Source: Spinacia oleracea
Taxonomy: Eukaryota > Streptophyta > Magnoliopsida > Caryophyllales > Amaranthaceae
DNA length: 64,000 bases
NCBI RefSeq assembly: GCF_020520425.1
Contig: NC_079487.1
Location: 129,602,385 to 129,666,384, forward strand
Direction: 5' to 3'
Made by a program: the position numbers and the translations under genes. Below the pieces are notes generated by a model. The model saw only the letters and a program-made list of their open reading frames with translations. It was not told the origin of the DNA and did not search any database. Shown one piece after another: positions 5,045 to 60,578 of this stretch; within the stretch, counting starts at the first letter, position 1, and each line of letters starts with the position of its first letter.

Positions 5045-5739
5045 GCACCAAAAGGATCGGGGAAACATAACCATTTGAATAAACCCACTGGCAATTGGCA
5101 TGCACGCTAAGGGTTCGCAACATGACCTAGTCTCGTCCCCTGGATATTGGACGCATTCTTCCATCCTAGTTCTGCAACTGAGACCATTTATATTAGGTAA
5201 ATTTGTCAAAAACTACCTTATAAAATATGATTTTTGCGAAAAACTACCTTATAAAAAAAATGTTGTAATAAACTACCTTATAAAAATTTTATGTTGTAAG
5301 ATACTACCTTTGGCCATATTATGAGCATTAATTCAAAATTACGACGTTGACTTTACTAGGTGCATATTACGCGACATCTAACGGGAAAGACGTAATTAAA
5401 TGGCACGTGACATATATATGGTAAAGTCAATCCCGAAATTTCAATCAAACGTTCGTAATTTGGGAAAAGGTAGTATCTTACAACATAAATTTTTTATAAG
5501 GTAGTTTATTACAACATTTTTTTTATAAGGTAGTTTTTCGCAAAAATCATATTTTATAAGGTAGTTTTTGACAAATTTGCCTTTATATTATTGTTATTAT
5601 CAGCGCCAACCCCTTGAAGCATGATGCTTGTAAGGGGGTGCGGGATTTCGCGGACGCCTAACACGGGTTCAGGTGCGGTGGTAACCACCAATATTGCTAC
5701 CAAAACTACCATACTAACATGCACCCTCTTCATCTCCAT
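5045..5739 (-). pseudogene. Secreted cystine-knot peptide gene, amaranth alpha-amylase-inhibitor-like, split by a MITE
   Basis: Read on the minus strand from an ATG at 5739, the first half encodes a typical signal peptide (MEMKRVHVS then a Val/Ile/Leu-rich core) and a short acidic or proline-bearing propeptide. A 386-bp Mutator-type MITE (5196-5581) interrupts the gene. The far side encodes a six-cysteine pattern C-x6-C-x10-CC-x4-C-x(n)-C, including CCEPLAC. The Amaranthus alpha-amylase inhibitor knottin has C-x6-C-x8-CC-x4-C-x6-C with CCEPYTC, so a related insect-amylase or protease inhibitor is the best guess. The spacing before the last Cys is unusually long, so that assignment is uncertain. 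A second relic of the family starts at 33177. A TATA-like CTTATAATA lies just upstream near 5755-5763. The gene is presumably inactive unless the MITE is spliced out. Confidence 0.6.
5196..5581. mobile_element. Mutator-type MITE with long inverted arms and 9-bp target duplication
   Basis: Inverted arms of about 110 bp start GGTAAATTTGTCAAAAACTA and GGCAAATTTGTCAAAAACTA. The 9-bp TTTATATTA flanks both sides (5187-5195 and 5582-5590). Nine-base duplications are the hallmark of Mutator-like transposition. Each arm repeats an ACTACCTTATAAAA module three times. Confidence 0.85.
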
Positions 5740-22979: not shown

Positions 22980-24120
22980 ATGGAGTACTTTGGTTTGTTC
23001 ATCATTCTCCTATCGTTTTTTATTCTAGTTTTCTATATATTTCGCAACAAAAAAGAGTGCCCAACAAATTGGCCTGTTGTTGGGATGCTTCCAGCAATCC
23101 TGAAAAATGTCCATGACATCAACAACTATGTCATAAAAGTTATGGAAAATTCAAATTTAACTTTCCACGTGAAGGGCCCTTGGTTCTCCAAAAATACCAT
23201 TCTGTAAAAAAAAAAAAAAGTACCATTTTTATTTAAAAAAGTAGTACAATTCAATTTCTTTTTTGTCCTTTTTCATATTTTGTCTTTTGTTATGATATGC
23301 ATTTGCAAGCACATATCTGATATCCGAAAATATTTCCTCTTATCAGGTAAGCGTAAGCTTTGACTTGTTGAAATCATATATGGATGACCAAGAAAATGCC
23401 ACAATTCCCATTATTAGTAGTAAAAATAATGGGGTTGGGGTTGGGGGTGACAAATTTTTAAGGGATACAATTATTAACATTTTCATGGCAGGAGGTGATA
23501 CTACTAGCGTTGCTTTTACTTGGTTCTTTTATCTTCTTGTAAAGTATCCACAAGTTACCGCCAAGATTAGAGAGGAACTAGATGCTATATTAATAACACA
23601 AAGTAATTACAAAGATGATGATTTTGTAAAGAATTTTAGTGACAACAACAAGAAGCTAGTTTATCTTCATGCTGCATTATGTGAATCTTTACGAATGTAC
23701 CCTCCACTATTGTTCAACCATAAGACTTCAGTTAAATCAGACGTCCTCCCAAGTGGTCATAAAGTGGGTCCAAATACGGAAATTTACTTCGACATGTATG
23801 CAATGGGAAGGATGAAATCTTTATGGGGAGATGATTGCAACGAGTTTAAGCCCGAGAGATGGATAACGAAACAAGGGAATTTTAAGCTCGAGCCATCGAA
23901 CAAGCTTTTGGCTTTCGGTGCCGGGCCGAGGATTTGTCAAGGGAGGAGTATGACTTTCATACAGATGAAGATCGTAATAGCTGCTATTATCCCAAAGTAT
24001 GATATTGTGGCAGTGGAAGGACATCAAGTTGTTCCTGATGTCTCCATTGTTCTTCAAATGAAGCATGGATTTAAGGTTAAAATTGTCAGACGTCCTTCAA
24101 TTCCACTGCATGATTCATGA
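22980..24120 (+). pseudogene. CYP96A-type P450 pseudogene with central deletion and MITE fragment
   Basis: The N-terminal part (membrane anchor, CPTNWPVVGMLPA hinge, through GPWFS) aligns to residues 1 to about 69 of the intact copy at 877. About 200 residues (70-272) are then missing. In their place is a 143-bp piece of a Mutator-like MITE (23197-23339). Coding similarity resumes with VSFDLL and runs to the end: I helix AGGDTT, ExxR as ESLR, FKPERW, heme loop FGAGPRICQG and a stop at 24118-24120. The catalytic C-terminal half is open over 251 codons, so the break is the missing middle rather than scattered decay. No functional P450 can be made. Confidence 0.85.
23197..23339 (-). mobile_element. 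Half of a Mutator-like MITE at the P450 deletion junction
   Basis: The reverse complement matches the left two-thirds of the complete element at 37067-37327: one terminus (ACATATCTGATATCCGAAAA ... CCTC) and the repeated AAAAGTACCATT module. The other terminus is missing. The P450 deletion therefore starts inside the MITE. Confidence 0.8.
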
Positions 24121-27411: not shown

Positions 27412-28295
27412 ATGGCATACATGATCATCATCACATTGATCATTTCTTTTGTATTCTTTTGCTGCTTCTTTCGCAACAAAAATGGTCTTCCAACAAACTG
27501 GCCTCTTGTTGGAATGCTTCCCGCACTTCTTATAAACACTCACAGAATCAACGATTTCATAATTGAACTCATGCAAAACTCTGATCTCAATTTCCATTTA
27601 AAAGGCCCTTGGTTCACCAACATGAATTTTCTATTCACTGTTGATCCCACCAACATTAACCATGTTTTAAGCAAGAAATTTGAAAATTATGTCAAGGGCG
27701 CCAAGTTAAATGAAATTCTCGAACCCCTTGGAGAAGGAATGTTTAATACAGATTCTTCTCTATGGCGTTATCATCGAAATGTGGCTCAATCTTTCTTCAA
27801 CCATCCCAAATTCCACCATTTTTTGGTCGATGTTACTTGGAAAAAAGTAAAAAGTTTATTTTCATGCTGCATTATGTGAAGCATTGAGGTTGTATCCTCC
27901 TATAGCATCAAACCTCAAAACACCAACTGAGCCAGATATCCTTCCAAGTGGACATAGAGTGAATCCAAATATACAAATTGTTTTTCACGCGTATGCAATG
28001 GGAAGGATGAAATCGATATGGGGAGACGACTGTAACGAGTTTAAGCCTGAAAGATGGATATCGGAACAAGGGATGATCAAACATGAGCCGTCGTATAAGT
28101 TTTCTGTGTTCAGTTCTGGGCCGAGGATTTGCATGGGGAAACAGATGGTTTTCACCCAAATGAAGATTATTGCTGCGATTATTATACAAAACTATCATAT
28201 CATATAGAGTTAAAAGAAACTAAACATGTTCCTAAAGCTGGTTTGGTACTTCATATGAAAAATGAGTTTAAGGTTAAGGTTTTTCCGTTACCAAG
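27412..28295 (+). pseudogene. CYP96A-type P450 pseudogene, middle deleted
   Basis: This is the closest relative of the intact P450. Residues 1 to about 146 are present (MAYMIIITL anchor, LPTNWPLVGMLPALL hinge, through FLVDVTWKKV). The sequence then jumps, with a frame change at about 27850, to the K helix (CEALRLYPP, reference residue about 370). The I-helix motif and about 220 residues are gone. PERW and the heme loop FSSGPRICMG are kept. A second frame break follows QNYHI near 28205 before the C-terminal VLHMKNEFKVKVF. An LTR element (28296-31659) landed in the last codons. Confidence 0.88.
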
Positions 28296-32561: not shown

Positions 32562-33076
32562 TTTATCATTTACGGAGTAACAATTTTCTTCCAACCTAAC
32601 TTATTAGACAAGAAATTAATTTACATGGTCCATCACCATGGGGACATACTGACATAAGTTTACCATGTATCAATATCAGTGAATGTATATGGACATATGG
32701 TGACGATCTATATCAATTTATATTTTTTGTGAAATACTCTGTAATAATTAAAACTTTCCGAAATGGAGATCGAACATGGGAAAATATTTAGCCGGTGCAC
32801 GACTATGTTTTTTCTTAAATATAAATCACAAATTGAAATCAAATCAAAGGAGCTAGTGTGAATAGTGTCAAAACCTCAATTGTGTCATATAAAAAAGAAT
32901 AGAGAAAGTATATAACAATTACTCCATATTGATTAAGAATTGCTCCTAGCTAGGGTTGAAAGTGACAACGTATCTACCGTGTGTTTATCTAGTAATTAGT
33001 AAATGCATGCATAGTGATCTAGATCGAATTAGGTGGCGGCGAATTGAATAACGAATTTGTTGCATTGCATGCATGA
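32562..33076. other. Intergenic, no gene seen
   Basis: AT-rich sequence with no open frame, repeat end or RNA fold that I can support. It leads into the promoter of the second knottin-family relic. Confidence 0.5.
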
Positions 33077-33078
33077 GG

Positions 33079-33087
33079 CTATAAAAG
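33079..33087 (+). promoter_or_regulatory. TATA box of the second knottin-family locus
   Basis: CTATAAAAG lies about 97 bp before the ATG at 33177 and is followed by a CT/CA-rich leader typical of a plant 5' UTR. The promoter looks intact although the reading frame is not. Confidence 0.55.
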
Positions 33088-33176
33088 GGGGTCCTCTTCT
33101 TCATCATCATTCATCAAACACATACAAATCAAACCAAATAAAAATAAAAATAAGAAGAAAGTGCAAATAGTTTAAA

Positions 33177-33350
33177 ATGGAGATGAAGAGGGCAGTGAGT
33201 TTGGTTGTTTTTTTTAAGTTTAATGGTGGTTGCTACAAAACCAGAACCCATAATGGGTGACCAGCCGCCATCAATTCCCTGACCCAATCCTGTCAAGCAT
33301 TATTCTTGAAGAGATTATTCATAGTGCTCTCACTTGTCATAATCAGGATG
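33177..33350 (+). pseudogene. Broken relative of the small secreted knottin-family peptide
   Basis: The start MEMKRAVSLVV parallels MEMKRVHVSMVV of the gene at 5739, and later remnants (TKPEP, DPILSSIIL) parallel TAPEP and HPLTSIML, so signal peptide and propeptide are related. The frame is broken and no six-cysteine domain is visible downstream. Instead a long inverted repeat follows (33363-33700). The locus keeps a good TATA box and leader, so it may still be transcribed. Confidence 0.5.
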
Positions 33351-33362
33351 AGTTATATTATA

Positions 33363-33700
33363 TTATATTATATTATATTGGAGGATCTGGTGGGATCGGA
33401 CGTCGGCGAATATCATTATAAAGGACATGCATAGCTCTTATAAGAGTTATGAGAGGATGTCCGGATGATGATGAGATGATCGATTGATTAAGTACGTGAA
33501 ACAAACGGAGACACATCTGAATGACAAAACCGCCCCATATAGATGTGTAAGGCTTCCGTTTGTTTCACGTACTTAATCGATCGATCATCTCATCATCAGT
33601 CGGACATCCTCTCATAACTTTTAAAGAGTTGTACATGTCCTCTATGATAATATTCGCCGACGTCCAATCCCATCATATCCTCCAATATAATATAATATAT
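33363..33700. repeat. Long imperfect inverted repeat (hairpin with ~145-bp arms)
   Basis: The left arm (about 33365-33510) and right arm (about 33556-33700) pair over nearly their whole length at roughly 85-90 percent by eye. Shared text includes GGACGTCGGCGAATAT, AGTTATGAGAGGATGTCCG, GATGATGAGATGATCGAT and GATTAAGTACGTGAAACAAA. Even the 45-bp spacer contains a small ACACATCT/AGATGTGT stem. It could be a foldback element or a young inverted-duplication small-RNA locus; it lies just downstream of a promoter. Confidence 0.8.
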
Positions 33701-34329
33701 GTCCGAATAAATAAATTGAAGTTGAATGTATCAGTGTATTAGTGTATAATTCGTATGTGTATGTGCATGTATTTGTATGTGGATGTGTGCGTACTACATC
33801 TTAAATTTAAGTTATGTTGTTATTGATATTATGAATGTTGGATTTAATTATCTCCCGTTCTCCTGGCCTGTCTTAATTAATAACTATTCCATGTTATGTT
33901 TACGTCTTTACACTTCATAATGCTATTTGTGTTGTGCGAATGCACGCACTATATCGTCTAATTGGGACATAGTAGCCATAGCTAATATATCAGTTAAAAA
34001 TTTTGTACTCGGTAATTTTATTTCTTTAAAAAAATTGACCATGCATTTACACCCAATCCAATGTTAAAAAAACGCAATTGACAAAATCCTACGTACTATA
34101 ATAAACTTTTCAAGGGATCATTTCTTGATTAGTCTAAGTGTCTAACAAAACCTAGAACACAAATTAATTAATTGATGTTGATGGATACACTTGAATTCTA
34201 CACAATATATATCGAATTATCCAATTTTGATTCTGGGTACTTGAGGAAACGAATCAAGAACATAGGAAGTTGAAACTGCGGAGTTGGAGAAGAATCATAA
34301 AGGACTAAGAACCCGTGAGAACTTTGTTT

Positions 34330-38388: not shown

Positions 38389-39901
38389 ATGGCCAAAGTG
38401 TAGGACATTACTCTACAAGGGGCTCCATAATTTTGGCATAAAGGGTTGATGGACATGGTGTCTCTTGTACAGTTGTACTTTGCATGCTTGTTACAATCAA
38501 AGTACGTGAACATTCATTATCATCTTGCACATTTATATGGTGTTATTGTCTAATGAACAAATTAATGAAAATAACACTTGTAAGTTGTAACCTGTTTATG
38601 CCAAATTTCGTATGGACGACCTTTGGTTGGGACATAGACGACTAGATAAAATAAAGTATGTAAATGACATGAAATAAAGGGCGGAAATAAAGAGAGACGA
38701 GACAAGAGATGGTGACGCGGAAAACCCGAAAGGGATAAAAACCGCGGGTGGCCATGAGTCCACCAATCCACTAGGTAATAGGCGTAAAAAGCCTTATTGA
38801 GTACAATTACATTGTATATTCGCAAGAACGTAAATATAGCTAATATAATAGGGTAAACACAAGTAGGTGTGGCAAATATTGTGGGAGTACGTAAGCGGAC
38901 GAGACATTCAGGGAAGACTCGTTGTGAAAGAGCTTTATAATAGGGCAGTAGGCTTAATGCAAGGGTAGTTGGTTTAGTTGGTTTAGTATATACCTTGGCT
39001 AAAGATGAACGACAATGGTTAATATCTTGGTGGAATACCCATGTGGAAGATAAGAGGAAGGCTAACTTATATTTGTTATAGGAGCTACGGGAAAAGCCAT
39101 CGGATCATAGGAGCATGAAGGGATAGTATATATATATATACCGTAGCCGTTCGGATAACGTGTGTTAGTGGAGTAAATGGCAGAACATGGGAAGCGTGGG
39201 TTTCATTGTAGGCGTTCTAGATGGAGATTGAAAGTGTCCTCTCATCGTAGACTGATGGTCTTTATATAGCACTAGGTCAAGCATAGGAGGCAGAATAATG
39301 CCGTTAGTTGTCCCTTGATACTCTCAACTGATCCCTTGATTTCCTCTAACCGTTTGCTTGATCCTTGCTAGCTTCCTTGACCTTGTCCAACAAACATATA
39401 GTGGAGATGATGGCTCCTTGAATATAGGAACCAACCTTGACTGCTTCCTTAATAGGATCCGAGGACAGACTGACTTGCGATGACTTGTTCCAGCGTCGAC
39501 CTCACGTCGTACAAAACGACCAATAACAATAGCCCCCATTTTCCTAATTGTAGGGAGTCGAAAGTTAGGAAAATAATCTTCAAAGTCTGTCACCGCGTTC
39601 ATTTGATGTCGATGCTAATCTGTCATTGTCTTCGTCTTGTCCGTCGTCTTCCATACTTAATCTTGATCAGTGGCGTCGTAACTTGGTGTCATCCATGATT
39701 TTTGACAGCACTTGATGTCATCATGCGTATATTGGCGTCTTCATGTTGGCGTTGGTGTCCTTAGCTTAATTAGACGTAAACCTGACATCTTGTGAAAGAA
39801 TCGTTCCTCTTAACGAGCGTGATACAACAGAATGTAATTCTCAAAAAACCTGTGCGAAAACATATATGTTAAGACACAACGTTAGTTAGGTATCTAGCGT
39901 C

Positions 39902-43760: not shown

Positions 43761-44883
43761 GTTGATGACATGTGCCCTGACGTAGCTCCATCTCATGGTG
43801 GCGACAAAGTATGACAACAATCCATAGCCTGACGACAAATTTATTGGTGAGCCCAAGTGGGTCGGATATTGTGTTTGAGAGAATATTTGTGGATATGTGT
43901 TTGAAGATAAATCTAGCCATCTCCCCACAGACGGCGCCAAACTGTTTATGCCAAATTTCGTATGGACGACCTTTGGTTGGGACATAGACGACTAGATAAA
44001 ATAAAGTATGTAAATGACATGAAATAAAGGGCGGAAATAAAGAGAGACGAGACAAGAGATGGTGACGCGGAAAACCCGAAAGGGATAAAAACCGCGGGTG
44101 GCCATGAGTCCACCAATCCACTAGGTAATAGGCGTAAAAAGCCTTATTGAGTACAATTACATTGTATATTCGCAAGAACGTAAATATAGCTAATATAATA
44201 GGGTAAACACAAGTAGGTGTGGCAAATATTGTGGGAGTACGTAAGCGGACGAGACATTCAGGGAAGACTCGTTGTGAAAGAGCTTTATAATAGGGCAGTA
44301 GGCTTAATGCAAGGGTAGTTGGTTTAGTTGGTTTAGTATATACCTTGGCTAAAGATGAACGACAATGGTTAATATCTTGGTGGAATACCCATGTGGAAGA
44401 TAAGAGGAAGGCTAACTTATATTTGTTATAGGAGCTACGGGAAAAGCCATCGGATCATAGGAGCATGAAGGGATAGTATATATATATATACCGTAGCCGT
44501 TCGGATAACGTGTGTTAGTGGAGTAAATGGCAGAACATGGGAAGCGTGGGTTTCATTGTAGGCGTTCTAGATGGAGATTGAAAGTGTCCTCTCATCGTAG
44601 ACTGATGGTCTTTATATAGCACTAGGTCAAGCATAGGAGGCAGAATAATGCCGTTAGTTGTCCCTTGATACTCTCAACTGATCCCTTGATTTCCTCTAAC
44701 CGTTTGCTTGATCCTTGCTAGCTTCCTTGACCTTGTCCAACAAACATATAGTGGAGATGATGGCTCCTTGAATATAGGAACCAACCTTGACTGCTTCCTT
44801 AATAGGATCCGAGGACAGACTGACTTGCGATGACTTGTTCCAGCGTCGACCTCACGTCGTACAAAACGACCAATAACATAACC

Positions 44884-59882: not shown

Positions 59883-60330
59883 TCCGGTTGAATGTAATGT
59901 TTGTACACTAAATGGGTGCTTTTTATTCTTTTTCTAATTTAATCGCGCGAAAGCATGTAGATTATGCAATGTTGTAAAAAAAAATAAAAACCTTTGAGAT
60001 CAATCAAATTGTATGATTGTATTCATCATGTCATCCAATTTCCTCATTTGTTTGGCTTTCTCAAAGTGTGTTTGCTGAAAGTTTCGACTTCTTGATTGAC
60101 AATTTCTCATTGTAAGTTTGTAACAGCTTGAAGACCTACTCTGAACTTTTTGTATGGTTCGAAACTTGAAGCCATTTTCAAAAGAGTTAACAATAATTAT
60201 TCAAAACCTGATTTAAACCAGCTGATAACTCCATTTTAAGATGTTAATTACCTCAAATTCATAGATTACAAATTAATGCTCTTAGATAAACTGTACAACT
60301 TATGGGAAGTTTGGACGCAATTTAGAAGGT
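59883..60330. other. HINT3 3' flank
   Basis: It contains the 3' UTR (AATAAAAACC near 59982 could serve as a poly-A signal). Nothing else was recognised. Confidence 0.4.
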
Positions 60331-60578
60331 GGACCATGGTGCACATAGAGCATGGTGCACCTTAAGAACATTAGTATATAATTAAAAGAACATCCGTTTA
60401 CGTAAAAAGAACATGGACATATTTTTTTTTATATTTTTAATAAATTGTGATTTTTTATAACAAAAAAGTAAAAAATTATATTGCATGTTCTTTTGTCGTA
60501 GTGTCATGTTCTTTTGTTTATGCACATGTGTTCTTTTGTTGCACATGGTGCACCATGCTCTATGTGCACCATGGTCCA
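60331..60578. mobile_element. Inverted-repeat MITE, GGACCATGGTGCACATAGAG type
   Basis: A 30-bp arm at the left (GGACCATGGTGCACATAGAG then CATGGTGCAC) is repeated inverted at 60545-60578. The interior is AT-rich and carries repeated AAAGAACAT/TGTTCTTTT motifs. The target duplication was not resolved. Confidence 0.75.

Follow-up and report, generated by a model that had tools for sequence, protein, structure and literature searches.

SULF, a small-RNA locus of Antirrhinum, is described in two reviews as having been born by inverted duplication and as acting on the transcript of a gene (PMC9750854, PMC12371187), and the YUP locus of Mimulus appears in the second as a taxon-specific siRNA locus derived from a partial copy of a protein-coding gene; it was copied from a CYP450 homologue and targets a MYB gene (PMC12371187). 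For pseudogene-derived MIRNA genes, the inverted-duplication model starts from inverted pseudogene sequence and has the parent gene as the target (PMC3237417). The hairpin that we describe here from spinach (Spinacia oleracea) resembles SULF in its inverted-duplication origin (PMC9750854, PMC12371187), but its source is a cysteine-rich peptide gene and it is known here from sequence alone. It differs from YUP, as summarized above, in that its predicted target is the parent family itself, and from the case in PMC3237417, which involves two adjacent inverted pseudogenes, in that a single pseudogene harbors its own 3' end a second time, inverted, in its interior. SULF, YUP, and the pseudogene-derived MIRNA genes are the nearest described cases, and we regard the spinach locus as a new candidate member of this set. 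Rice Lgc1, the soybean I locus, and maize Mu killer are natural inverted repeats that silence their relatives; they are longer than the spinach hairpin or differently arranged, and silencing is proven in them.

The locus lies in a window of 64,000 nucleotides, the whole stretch of DNA that was analyzed (C1:129602385-129666384), and the genome that was searched comprises 894,210,420 bases in 242 contigs. Its outline had been proposed beforehand from the letters of the window as a TATA box and leader ahead of a peptide relic, followed about 185 bp after the ATG by an inverted repeat with a short spacer. Our analysis bears this original prediction out: the TATA box lies upstream of an ATG at 33177, the reading frame is broken, and the inverted repeat begins 187 bp after the ATG, at 33364. 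The unit, 33063 to about 33835, represents a gene copy for a secreted, knottin-like peptide that has decayed; relatives of the gene are found on another chromosome, contig C6 (L011 and its neighbors, described below). The parts of the unit are the following.

33063 to 33176, + strand: inherited core promoter and 5' leader, with TATAAA at 33080 and a K80 of 0.228 to the C6 gene L011
33177 to 33351, + strand: decayed 5' coding part, with the ATG kept and the frame broken, ending just past the first cysteine codon
33352 to 33363, + strand: AT-rich 5-bp repeat bordering the inverted copy on its left, as read from the letters
33364 to 33509, + strand: 5' arm, repeating the 3' end of the gene itself in inverted orientation and antisense to the C6 mRNAs
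33489 to 33509, + strand: predicted 21-nt guide, starting with U, that scores 2.0 on five of six C6 sites and 3.0 on the sixth
33510 to 33554, + strand: spacer or loop of 45 bp, with a short inner inverted repeat that is paired in the fold
33555 to 33699, + strand: 3' arm, made up of the last codons and 3' UTR of the gene itself, still where they originally stood
33595 to 33655 (edges approximate), + strand: partly palindromic stretch of about 60 bp, shared by both arms, which the C6 genes lack and for which genome searches gave no other place
33700 to 33835, + strand: remaining 3' UTR, with AATAAA at 33706 and 33710 and patchy similarity to C6, its end set by eye in a global alignment

The surviving TATA box and poly(A) signal AATAAA frame the hairpin. 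Compared with the C6 genes, the frame of the unit is disrupted by a single additional base and by gaps of 8 and 3 bases, and its coding part stands at a K80 of 0.118 from L011, against the 0.228 of the promoter and leader. A genome search with the query 33063-33351 returned eight places; apart from the query, all seven fall within a single cluster at C6:9.467-9.605 Mb. The leader also holds extra AATAAA words at 33137 and 33143, which have no counterpart in the aligned C6 leaders and might end transcripts ahead of the hairpin. Farther upstream, homology of 32798-32911 to the sequence preceding L011 was considered as a shared distal promoter and rejected; this stretch is a common repeat, and its homology is therefore no sign of such a promoter. 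The sequence from 34335 onward is a common repeat too.

The relic had also been said to belong to the same peptide family as others in the window, and this assignment held when the window was searched by tblastn with a C6 relative, which gave pieces at 33177-33573 (+ strand) and 5739-5608 (- strand, E 8e-6). At 5739-5040 (- strand) a copy of the family is broken by a MITE at 5195-5582, past which cysteine-rich coding seems by eye to resume. A probable third relic at 20180-20030 (- strand), with a leader and an ATG and broken early, is weak, having a tblastn E of 3.0 and being otherwise read by eye. Interspersed with the peptide relics are a Cytochrome P450-like gene and fragments (811-2424, 22980-24120, and 27412-28285), which are mutually similar and were assigned to that family by eye. 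Elsewhere in the window, two 940-bp direct repeats (38589-39528 and 43939-44878), 99.9% identical and 4.4 kb apart, have the appearance of LTRs from a very young retrotransposon.

The C6 relatives form a tandem array (L011-L016 and L057, C6:9.467-9.615 Mb) in which four copies are intact and two are interrupted. The intact copies are 99-100% identical over 105 amino acids, with a mutual K80 of 0.004-0.011. Both partial copies are split by insertions: one has its 5' piece at 9558335 and the remainder at 9564788, and the other has lost its tail, which reappears at 9615095, with TATTT at both edges of the break. When the genome was searched at the protein level with the C6 peptide, 22 matches were obtained, comprising the four intact and two partial copies of this cluster, the window locus, and 15 weaker ones. 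The latter (L033-L035 and L037-L048) are dispersed, more diverged knottin-like peptide matches on C1-C6 whose protein matches end by residue 86 of 105, and blastn of the coding part of the 3' arm against these fifteen gave no match. The C6 peptide has six cysteines in the order C-C-CC-C-C, which is the knottin order, as read by eye from the translation, and it looks secreted, the signal peptide being likewise judged by eye. Its best solved relative in the PDB is gurmarin, a weak match (E 0.0073); a second PDB search, with a diverged relative as the query, gave only E 0.16 or worse, and nothing in Pfam or NCBIfam rose above the cut-off for the proteins tried.

An origin by inverted duplication had been proposed, and the source can now be named, since the arm corresponds to the 3' end of the same peptide gene. 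By local blastn, two stretches, 33543-33588 and 33677-33724, run colinear with the C6 genes over their last codons and 3' UTR (84.8% and 83.7%, respectively), and patchy similarity continues to about 33835; the 3' arm has thus kept its original position. At its outer end, the 5' arm matches the C6 3' UTR in antisense over 24 nt at 95.8%, and this arm occupies the position that in the C6 genes codes for four of the six cysteines, while the first and last cysteine codons are still visible in the C1 copy. From these alignments, the 5' arm is an inverted copy of the 3' arm that has replaced the stretch for four of the six cysteines, and the arms derive from a protein-coding gene with extant relatives. 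The approximately 60 bp that are present in both arms and absent from C6 suggest that the inversion is younger than the arrival of this stretch in the C1 lineage, unless it was lost on the C6 side. Because the intact C6 copies are much closer to one another than the two arms are (K80 0.097), the array would have been amplified or homogenized after the hairpin arose. The simplest order of events would then be the split of C1 and C6, the inverted duplication, and the amplification or homogenization of the array, although an order based on K80 could be distorted by gene conversion and by the transition-rich change between the arms, where 11 of the 13 substitutions are transitions.

The arms are identical at 132 of 145 aligned bases, with one gap column, and the long double strand that had been expected of a transcript is recovered in the predicted fold of 33177-33720. 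This stretch folds at -283.6 kcal/mol, compared with -128 (sd 6.32) in 100 dinucleotide shuffles, none of which was as low (0/100, z -24.6). In a scan of the window with 749 tiles (340 nt, step 85), the two lowest energies, -188.9 and -172.0, overlap the hairpin, and the lowest away from it is -131.9; the latter tile corresponds to an inverted repeat at 60330-60578 with 32-bp perfect outer arms. Folded alone, the hairpin has 304 of its 337 nt in pairs on the + strand, at -235.5 kcal/mol, and 298 of 337 on the - strand, at -226.2 kcal/mol. At the level of the predicted fold, the locus has the long inverted repeat, foldable within one transcript, that characterizes the hairpin-siRNA class. The Rfam miRNA families gave eight matches at E<=1, all of them under the gathering score (the best, MIR403, had 45.1 bits against a gathering score of 70), so a known MIRNA family was rejected, an exclusion that applies to described families only. 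The stem, being long and nearly perfect, would be more in keeping with a hairpin-siRNA locus than with a MIRNA gene whose processing is precise. Among the 11 arm transitions, G:U-keeping changes on the + strand (7 vs 4) show no clear excess, and the changes are too few to decide on a covariation or G:U signal in the stem.

A genome search for a gene matching the arms had been proposed together with the original prediction, and near-complementary relatives do exist in the C6 array, on another chromosome. The 24-mer at 33554-33577, allowed up to 3 mismatches over the 894 Mb, matched ten places, which are its own two arms, six sites in the array (five with 2 mismatches and one with 3), and two sites on C4, both with 3 mismatches; the backwards control of this 24-mer gave one match, and the two C4 sites are at chance level. 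At five of the C6 sites, the pairing of the predicted guide at 33489-33509 would include a G:U at position 9 and a single mismatch, at position 18. Scores of 13 and 17 for the two C4 sites do not square with their 3 mismatches, presumably owing to a wrong orientation or position in the scan, and were set aside. The best 21-nt guide score was 2.0, and all 25 first-order Markov controls, made for one arm against one C6 gene, gave best scores of 4.0-9.0. The 21-mers scoring 4 or less number 26 of 634 on both strands and 10 of 317 on the + strand, which is the strand of the proposed transcript, and, apart from two at the outer end of the 5' arm, all come from the part of the stem next to the loop. 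Scored by a rule written for this analysis, complementarity to the targets lies within plant small-RNA rules. Because the target-match figures follow from shared ancestry, they express a capacity and are not evidence of use. A search of the main texts of papers for the 16-base core of the predicted guide gave no match.

As far as its sequence goes, the locus has the anatomy of a young inverted-duplication hairpin-siRNA locus, and we put at roughly 45% the probability that it is a gene-derived hairpin (hpRNA) locus that silences the C6 array. Transcribed from the inherited promoter, the RNA would form a stem of about 150 bp, which Dicer-like enzymes would cut into 21-24-nt siRNAs; after loading, guides from the antisense arm would bind the C6 array mRNAs at the 3' end of their coding sequence and reduce their abundance. 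Public small-RNA reads of spinach are listed under PRJNA796451 (PMC9029227). Such a role is favored by the homology of the whole unit to the array, from promoter to 3' UTR; by the arms and their fold at a single locus, with TATA and AATAAA around the hairpin; by the colinearity of the 3' arm with the gene's own 3' end, with the 5' arm as its antisense; and by the 24-mer matches in the array and the guide score of 2.0 relative to the controls. It is disfavored by the small number of 21-mers scoring 4 or less on either count, by the lack of a clear excess of G:U-keeping changes, by the AATAAA words in the leader, and by the probable amplification or homogenization of the array at a time when the hairpin already existed, a history that gives no hint of strong silencing. 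That an active, lineage-specific hairpin RNA sets the dose of the recently amplified C6 knottin-like array, with a dead member older than the present copies acting as the regulator of the family, seems to us rather doubtful.

The original prediction had named one finding that would count against it, namely many copies of the hairpin, as of an ordinary foldback MITE, and such copies did not appear in three DNA and two pattern searches, within their sensitivity. DNA searches with the whole hairpin, one arm, and the 69-bp inner part returned no further genomic copies, and two 24-mers of the hairpin, allowed up to 3 mismatches over the whole genome, matched this locus only; the pattern searches covered three 24-mers in all. 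The genome DNA search is a seeded first look in which short diverged matches can be missed: with the hairpin or the arm it did not return the C6 genes, where local blastn does find matches of 46 and 49 bp. As a positive control, the foldback query 5190-5590 gave 776 first-look candidates and 40 scored places, itself included, all 97-100% identical, and the foldback at 5195-5582 is an ordinary MITE that lies inside another of the peptide relics and is bordered on each side by a 9-bp direct repeat. The palindromic form of the hairpin and the presence of such a MITE in the relic at 5.7 kb would recommend reading it as a foldback MITE inserted into a peptide pseudogene. Nevertheless, this explanation is scarcely credible and was rejected, because the hairpin, unlike its neighbor, is confined to a single locus in these searches and because its arm is homologous to the gene's own 3' end, with similarity extending beyond the right edge. 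No target-site duplication was seen by eye at the hairpin ends, which are both abutted by AT-rich repeats.

The main rival to a silencing locus is a silent relic, that is, a dead gene copy that acquired an inverted copy of its tail by accident, through template switching in repair or replication, and that is not transcribed or not diced and decays neutrally. We consider this a distinct possibility, given the broken reading frame, the arms that are already 9-10% apart with no clear bias to pairing-neutral changes, the poly(A)-like words in the leader, and the two other family relics that the window contains (at 5.7 kb and, weakly, at 20.2 kb); the retention of the TATA box, leader, and AATAAA and the still nearly continuous stem weigh on the other side, although both are compatible with a silent locus too. 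Long inverted repeats commonly feed 24-nt siRNAs, and the hairpin might act on chromatin only: its 24-nt siRNAs would direct methylation of their own locus, and perhaps of the C6 3' ends, and would leave the mRNAs uncleaved. The predominance of transitions among the arm differences (11/13) is expected of methylated cytosines but also of ordinary mutation, whereas the C6 copies are nearly identical and intact, and we judge this alternative improbable.

Whether or not it silences the C6 array, this locus allows the source gene, the inherited promoter, the inverted copy, and the predicted target array all to be read in one genome, at a stage in the birth of a silencing locus that is usually blurred. 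If silent, it would be a dated example of the raw material for such loci; if functional, a decaying copy of a peptide gene would have become the regulator of its own family.
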